In this document: positions 39,882 to 42,514 of the stretch, one piece after another
Numbering within the stretch: position 1 is the first letter of the stretch
Layout of the letters: every line of letters begins with the position of its first letter
From: Nitrososphaerota archaeon
Lineage (GTDB): Archaea; Thermoproteota; Nitrososphaeria; Nitrososphaerales; Nitrosopumilaceae
Assembly (NCBI GenBank): GCA_005877205.1
Contig: VBPL01000011.1
Location: 1 to 42,571 of the forward strand
DNA: 42,571 nt
Direction: 5' to 3'
Translations under genes and position numbers: made by a program
The notes under the pieces: model-generated
Seen by the model: only the letters and a program-made list of their open reading frames with translations
Database searches by the model: none
Told to the model about the DNA's origin: nothing

Positions 39882-39955
39882 GCCGCCCTAGCTCAGCGTG
39901 GTAGAGCAGCTGACTGTTAATCAGCGGGTCGTCAGTTCAAGTCTGACGGGCGGCG
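39882..39955 (+). tRNA. tRNA-Asn (anticodon GTT)
   Basis: Acceptor arm GCCGCCC pairs with GGGCGGC. The D arm is GCTC/GAGC, and the anticodon stem GCTGA/TCAGC holds loop CTGTTAA with anticodon GTT. The T arm is GTCAG/CTGAC around TTCAAGT. The discriminator is G and no CCA is encoded. There is no intron. A perfect palindrome starts five bases after the 3' end. Confidence 0.98.
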
Positions 39956-39960
39956 CACGA

Positions 39961-39986
39961 TATTTCTAAATTCGAATTTAGAAATA
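39961..39986. repeat. Perfect 26-bp palindrome after tRNA-Asn, first of a pair (possible terminator)
   Basis: The arms TATTTCTAAATTC and GAATTTAGAAATA are exact reverse complements, centred on TCGA. As RNA this gives an 11-bp hairpin with a TCGA loop. A five-T run at 39990-39994 follows, so it could act as a terminator for the tRNA. It is related to the palindrome at 40041. Confidence 0.8.
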
Positions 39987-40040
39987 ACGTTTTTAGTTCT
40001 TTGAAATCAAATCTGTAAACCACTAGGTGTTTGAAAAGTA

Positions 40041-40066
40041 TATTTCAGAACTCGAGTTATGAAATA
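40041..40066. repeat. Near-perfect 26-bp palindrome, second of a pair
   Basis: The arms TATTTCAGAACTC and GAGTTATGAAATA pair at 12 of 13 positions. It has the same ends (TATTTC/GAAATA), centre (TCGA) and length as the palindrome at 39961, and starts exactly 80 bp after it. Two of the three differing base pairs are changed on both sides, keeping the pairing. Confidence 0.8.
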
Positions 40067-40095
40067 TTGTACTGCGAAAACATTTTGGTTCATTC

Positions 40096-40118
40096 TATTA
40101 GACTGTATAGATCTAATA
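40096..40118. repeat. Inverted repeat upstream of the zinc-ribbon gene
   Basis: TATTAGA and TCTAATA form perfect seven-base arms with a nine-base spacer, about 40 bases before the TTG start at 40156. It lies in the same leader as the two 26-bp palindromes. Confidence 0.4.
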
Positions 40119-40143
40119 CTGATCGCATTATTAGGAGACATGC

Positions 40144-40150
40144 AGGAGGT
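40144..40150 (+). promoter_or_regulatory. Shine-Dalgarno sequence for the zinc-ribbon gene
   Basis: AGGAGGT lies five bases before the TTG at 40156. A strong ribosome-binding site is unusual in this window, where most first genes look leaderless, and it supports the TTG start. Confidence 0.6.
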
Positions 40151-40155
40151 CCGCA

Positions 40156-40413
40156 TTGGCCAGGACAAGACGCGCAAATAGGTATTGCGTGGATTGTGGG
40201 GGAAGATTGGTTTACTACCCACGCCTTTCGAATCCTAAGGCGCCTAACGAACATAGGATTTTGGTTTATGCTTGTCCAGACTGCACTAAAGATTTTGATA
40301 AACCAAAGATGTTTTCTATTAGACGAAATGTGGTAGAGGAGCCGATAGAAGCTGTTGAAATTGAGATAGTCCAATCTAGAGAAAAGATTTCCGAGGTTAA
40401 TGCAGCGAATTAG
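40156..40413 (+). CDS. Zinc-ribbon protein, unknown function
   Basis: This 85-residue protein has a basic N-terminus (ARTRRANRY), CVDCGG (Cys11, Cys14) and CPDC (Cys40, Cys43), forming a zinc ribbon, then an acidic tail rich in Glu and Val. The start is TTG 40156 with a clear Shine-Dalgarno AGGAGGT in front. It is preceded by 200 noncoding bases holding three inverted repeats, so it probably has a structured leader or read-through from the tRNA region. A nucleic acid-binding or ribosome-associated role is possible but only inferred. Confidence 0.75.
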   Translation: MARTRRANRYCVDCGGRLVYYPRLSNPKAPNEHRILVYACPDCTKDFDKPKMFSIRRNVVEEPIEAVEIEIVQSREKISEVNAAN

Positions 40414-42000: not shown

Positions 42001-42172
42001 CTTACTTGAGTTGAGAAATCAGATCTAATGAAAGCTGATGCGAATAATATCTTAGATTAGTGTGTATGCCAGGTTCACCGTAATATGGTAAAGAACTAAC
42101 GATCTCTTTGAATTTTTCATCACTTTGGCATAATTGATATCATGTTAAATAGATAAATTTCTTAGTGGTTCT

Positions 42173-42514
42173 ATGGAAAAATTTGAGCTTAGATTTACGG
42201 CAATTAAGAGACCTACCGACGCCCAATTAAAAAAACTACAAGAATATTTTAGCGGTATGCCTTTGGATGAAATTTTAGCTGGTCTACATTTTGCAAGAAA
42301 TAGGTGGACTGCAAAAGACGCGGGAGTGTTAAAGGTAGGAAGAAAAAGCATTATCAAGCGTGAAATTCATTCAATAACAGTTGAGCAAGCTCAATGGCGT
42401 CTAAAAAACTGGAAGATGATGATTGCAAACTATAGAAAATTGGGATACAGCTACCCTACTATTTCCAGGATAAAGAAACTCTTAGTTGAAATAAGTAAAA
42501 AACGATCTAGGTAG
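42173..42514 (+). CDS. Small basic protein, unknown
   Basis: This 113-residue basic protein is predicted helical. It has MPLDEILAGLHFARNRWTAKDAGVLKVGRKSIIKREIHS, then a helix with QAQWRLKNWKMMIANYRKL. It has no cysteines and no membrane segment, and its charge suggests nucleic-acid binding. GTTAAATAGATAA (about 42144-42156) lies some 25 bases before the ATG, so the transcript is probably leaderless. The family is not recognised. The last 57 bases of the window after it hold nothing recognisable. Confidence 0.65.
   Translation: MEKFELRFTAIKRPTDAQLKKLQEYFSGMPLDEILAGLHFARNRWTAKDAGVLKVGRKSIIKREIHSITVEQAQWRLKNWKMMIANYRKLGYSYPTISRIKKLLVEISKKRSR

Follow-up and report, generated by a model that had tools for sequence, protein, structure and literature searches.

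Nearly all ammonia-oxidising archaea carry a palindromic element whose near-identical copies lie in a single chromosomal cluster opposite the replication origin, are conserved among relatives and consist of symmetric half-sites that vary nearly independently. We put it at about an even chance that these sites form one high-specificity cluster marking the terminus region as a protein-bound landmark. The element is real and conserved, and it is apparently undescribed; neither the motif nor its setting was found described in the open-access literature that was searched. The window (the whole stretch of 42,571 nucleotides that was analysed) holds two copies, and the single terminus-proximal cluster per chromosome is invisible from one contig.

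Palindromes of the window and the site consensus

The features of the window are listed in Table 1. The two palindromes reported beside tRNA-Asn in a preliminary description of this DNA were confirmed, with the pairing given in the table. No other 26-bp palindrome of the window reaches 12 of 13 pairs, and a mean of 0.05 was expected by chance (200 dinucleotide shuffles of the window). Their start-to-start distance of 80 bp, which had been taken as fixed, is exact in the window but is not strict, as paired copies 3' of tRNA-Asn lie ~60-82 bp apart in relatives. When a 341-base query around the sites was compared with 60 relatives, the locus was found to be conserved, and many of the relatives had extra copies 3-4 kb away. 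The window counterparts of these distal copies would fall past the contig end (42571). An Rfam scan of the window returned two tRNAs and nothing else.

The preliminary description had named lack of conservation in close relatives and random occurrence of similar palindromes as observations that would speak against selection. Neither was seen. The position of site 1 after tRNA-Asn is kept in relatives, as is that of the T tract among relatives of the same genus, and TATTTC-N14-GAAATA has only three matches in the 1.56-Mb genome of the window: sites 1 and 2, and a third on contig C34 that lacks the TCGA core.

Table 1. Features of the window that bear on the palindromic sites
Feature	Position	Strand	Remarks
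tRNA-Asn (GTT)	39882..39956	+	flanks the cluster
Site 1, TATTTCTAAATTCGAATTTAGAAATA	39961..39986	.	perfect 26-bp palindrome, 13/13 pairs; directly 3' of tRNA-Asn
T5 run	39990..39994	+	likely tRNA terminator; 3' of site 1
Site 2, TATTTCAGAACTCGAGTTATGAAATA	40041-40066	.	12/13 pairs; extends to a 28-mer (40040-40067) with one mismatched pair
Zinc-ribbon gene	40156..40413	+	85 aa, TTG start; adjoins sites within family f1
Possible decayed site	42158..42179	.	at the p119 start; weak, by comparison with relatives
p119 gene	42173..42514	+	113-aa basic, predicted all-helical protein; candidate site binder

The consensus of 296 unique sites is AATRTTTCTAAAYTCGARTTTAGAAAYATT. Since these sites were gathered with the 22-bp pattern TTTCNNAAYTCGARTTNNGAAA, free variation is limited to the N and Y/R positions and the flanks; within this limit the variable dinucleotide and its partner agree in 57.8% of the 296 sites, compared with 52.6% expected under independent halves. 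The half-sites thus vary nearly independently, which implies a dimeric protein that reads DNA rather than base pairing in RNA. The compensatory changes noted between sites 1 and 2 are real in this pair, but the collection gives no sign of selection on pairing. Of the two targets of selection that had been suggested, a dimeric binding site is supported by the symmetric half-sites and their conservation in relatives, whereas an RNA structure is not. The sites of one genome (G175) have drifted to a GC-richer version with the same plan.

Distribution and chromosomal position of the sites

Of 300 genomes searched in the class, 192 have the exact pattern, all of them in the four related families f1, f2, f3 and f8, and one has the reversed control pattern. 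The matches in a second, named collection were mostly from Nitrosopumilus, Nitrosotenuis, Nitrosotalea, Nitrosopelagicus, Nitrosocaldus, Nitrososphaera and Nitrosocosmicus, and it is because of these organism names that the carriers are called ammonia oxidisers. The remaining matches of this collection were bacterial records, mostly with single hits. Exact matches were seen on four contigs (L200, L215, L223, L230) of the deltaproteobacterial bin ALJrbin.12, and in 12 viral contigs (L060-L071), most of ~4.1-4.4 kb, from which p119 is absent. The viral matches are probably due to chance.

Each of 31 single-contig genomes has 2-5 copies, at one place per chromosome. With at most one mismatch allowed, 2-4 sites were found in each of 27 single-contig genomes and the control gave none in all 27; the sites listed for these genomes are all in one cluster each, the widest (in one f8 genome) extending over ~22 kb. 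Five copies were detectable in G035 at looser thresholds. Outside the clusters, 1.56 Mb of sampled sequence contained no site with up to two mismatches. The copies within a cluster are near-identical and 26-30 bp long. A dispersed repeat of the REP or MITE type was rejected, as there is one cluster per genome.

The cluster is separated from the best cdc6 gene by 0.396-0.487 of the circle (mean 0.456; 31 genomes of three families, nine of the 31 genome lengths being rounded and the relatives being non-independent observations). In f2 and f8 cdc6 is flanked by ORB repeats, and in the window's genus by ORB-like repeats; it therefore marks the origin. The ORB and ORB-like repeats next to cdc6, at L055:143-270, L057:2931-3010 and L058:1128-1210 in three genera of the class, are useful for origin annotation. 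A single origin has been mapped experimentally in N. maritimus (PMC4010727). ORB or oriC boxes were rejected as an identity of the sites, the ORBs being at cdc6, at the opposite pole. The distance between the cluster and the switch in strand composition is 0-20 kb in G151, ~37-55 kb in G103 and ~70-83 kb in G035.

The ribosomal-protein operon usually adjoins the cluster and is itself near the terminus, so that the nearness of the sites to the terminus is partly confounded by this linkage. The two are widely separated only in G151, where the operon is 233 kb from the cluster and the composition switches at the cluster, not at the operon. The main ribosomal-protein operon was found near the terminus pole in G037, G043, G103, G140, G144, G148, G151, G156, G174, G175 and G177, in contrast to its usual origin-proximal place in bacteria.

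Neighbouring genes and a candidate binder

In family f1 the copies are located 3' of tRNA-Asn, 116 bp ahead of the start codon of the zinc-ribbon gene (site 2 in the window, the exact -116 being kept in most genomes of the family), upstream of another small gene, and 3' of a gene read as PPOX-like. In 37 of 38 fetched loci the last of these copies lies 5-34 bp (mode 12) after the PPOX-like stop codon and has unconserved flanks; because the loci were mostly fetched for holding a site, it is the placement and not the frequency that counts as evidence here. In the window's genus sites lie ~77-146 bp upstream of cdvB. The neighbours in f2 and f8 are other genes than in f1, and in some families no zinc-ribbon gene was detected in the vicinity of the sites. 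Outside ORFs of at least 90 aa lie 153 of 165 sites, and 28 are between convergent genes.

The preliminary description suggested that the palindromes might serve the zinc-ribbon gene as a leader or operator array. The exact -116 spacing agrees with this reading, but homologous sites occur at the PPOX-like gene, at cdvB and at the p119 gene, and the array fits poorly because the neighbours differ between families and one copy follows a stop codon without other conserved sequence. The third inverted repeat (40096-40118) and the Shine-Dalgarno sequence AGGAGG assigned to the array are present and conserved in relatives, but in the window the leader (40090-40156) folds no better than shuffled sequences (z = 0.19). 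The zinc-ribbon protein did not reach the cut-off of any curated family. The zinc-ribbon leader (40096-40155) and its homologues contain, across genera, a conserved TTAGAC-N6-GATCTAATA element and the Shine-Dalgarno region GCAGGAGGT; they are possibly a separate protein site or a cis-regulatory leader.

One gene adjoining the sites, that of p119, recurs across families. The protein has a pI of 10.5 and a charge of about +16, and a predicted helix pair resembles a helix-turn-helix. It was found in 206 of the 300 genomes, in the same families as the sites, and none of the 31 site-carrying single-contig genomes lacks it. All 12 distinct p119 upstream regions that were read in f2 and f8 carry a site, which starts 44-89 bp (mostly 44-59) before the chosen start, and in about half of the window's genus a site is located at -15 of the gene. 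The possible decayed site of the window is at the same -15 place as the intact sites of relatives; it retains the TTTC-N14-GAAA ends and has lost the core. For f1 genera other than that of the window, no site was seen at the p119 promoter, and the gene and the sites are kilobases apart (140 kb in G140). p119 usually overlaps or abuts cdvB convergently; cdvB adjoins it in relatives and is beyond the end of the window's contig. The cdvB-like protein next to p119 matches CdvB families below their cut-offs.

No match to p119 was obtained in Pfam, NCBIfam, PDB sequences, PDB folds or viral folds, and PHROG gave weak matches only (best E 0.005). Because no known fold or family matches, p119 may not bind DNA. 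Its charge, predicted helices and gene position suggest it as the binder of the sites, an assignment that we make tentatively and with somewhat less than even confidence.

Possible roles of the cluster

If the cluster is a landmark, a dedicated homodimeric protein would bind each 26-30-bp palindrome, each half-site being contacted by one subunit, and a nucleoprotein complex would be loaded by the 2-5 neighbouring sites. The task of this complex may be chromosome maintenance, in which the last-replicated region is organised, segregated or anchored, and not the switching of one gene. The likeliest binder would be p119, usually encoded next to the ESCRT-III gene cdvB. A natural extension, by analogy with MatP/matS, is that the terminus may be tied to the Cdv division machinery. 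In its most specific form, the cluster would be a centromere-like terminus anchor, bound by the protein beside cdvB and coupling the last-replicated region physically to the ESCRT-III division machinery; we regard this form as rather unlikely. Some sites lie at promoters or keep a fixed distance to a gene, as before cdvB, at the p119 start and 116 bp ahead of the zinc-ribbon gene, and this placement counts against a landmark.

Because some sites are promoter-proximal, a gene-regulatory role, the main alternative, retains a considerable, if minor, share of our confidence. The sites would then be local operators through which a single autoregulated transcription factor, possibly p119, governs its own gene as well as cdvB, the zinc-ribbon gene and some further neighbours, and linkage to the ribosomal-protein operon would account for their place near the terminus. 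Autoregulators that act locally on a small number of operators are common, and the sites at the p119 promoter in f2 and f8, at the p119 start in about half of the window's genus and upstream of cdvB, together with the exact spacing to the zinc-ribbon start, agree with such a factor. Operators of this kind are harder to reconcile with neighbour genes that are not the same across families, with a conserved copy 3' of a stop codon where nothing else is conserved, with the 28 sites between convergent 3' ends, and with a cluster that, away from the ribosomal operon, is found at the composition switch (G151).

A replication fork barrier or trap, similar to Tus/Ter or RTP/Ter, would explain the terminus location and the composition switch so close to the cluster in G151. 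In G103 and G035, however, the switch is ~37-83 kb off, outside the support ranges, and since the sites are symmetric they have no obvious polarity; polar Ter sites were rejected on the symmetry and on the offset in two of three genomes, and a fork trap in general is highly improbable. A dif-like site, at which a tyrosine recombinase resolves dimers, would share the location and a size near that of dif (28 bp). dif/Xer acts at a single terminus site, whereas several copies (2-4 per single-contig genome) with a symmetric centre are present here, and Thaumarchaea have been reported to be without xerA (PMC2958812), which leaves this explanation scarcely any room. We see just as little room for a terminator hairpin of the tRNA or another RNA element: site 1 with the T run after tRNA-Asn does fold as RNA (z = -3.25), but copies exist without a tRNA nearby, the core sequence itself is conserved, and the nearly independent half-sites show no pair-preserving covariation, on which ground an RNA hairpin was rejected.

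A landmark that resembles parS, matS or SegB sites in its logic appears, by analogy, to be the best explanation. Bacterial parS sites, which are 16 bp long and near the origin, also form a small palindrome cluster at one chromosomal pole; the present cluster differs in being near the terminus (0.40-0.49 of the circle from cdc6) and in its 26-30-bp sites. The ParB_N domain (PF02195) was not found in G035 and G105, two site-carrying genomes, and parS/ParB was rejected on this result and on the distance of the sites from the origin. The matS sites of enterobacteria, bound by MatP, are likewise palindromic, restricted to the terminus and possibly similar in a link to division. The confinement to the terminus region was also found here, partly confounded by the ribosomal-operon linkage. 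matS sites are many, 13 bp long and spread over a large domain, whereas the present element is one compact cluster of 2-5 long sites with a candidate binder.

Among archaeal systems, the SegB sites of SegAB in Sulfolobales are palindromes read by a small dimeric DNA-binding protein and located near the binder's gene, as the present sites may be. The SegB motif, TCTAGASTCTAGA, recurs dozens of times across the chromosome, for the most part within genes (PMC12284271), whereas the 26-30-bp sites described here are mostly intergenic and in one cluster near the terminus. Comparison of the 296-site motif with the published one did not reveal TCTAGA-S-TCTAGA, and SegB sites were rejected. A review lists segAB in Crenarchaea and Euryarchaea (PMC5120986). 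In the AspA centromere of the Sulfolobus plasmid pNOB8, a 23-bp palindrome precedes the gene for the small dimeric protein that binds it (PMC5120986), an arrangement that the present sites would share if p119 has the candidate role. The likeness is one of description, and pNOB8 is a plasmid system in contrast to the chromosomal cluster.

To our knowledge, chromosome segregation and organisation are unexplained in ammonia-oxidising archaea, a very abundant group whose genetics is hard. A conserved DNA landmark at a single locus, together with one candidate partner, would provide a direct biochemical entry to chromosome segregation in these organisms. If tied to ESCRT-III division, it would show archaea coordinating replication termination with division without the bacterial systems.
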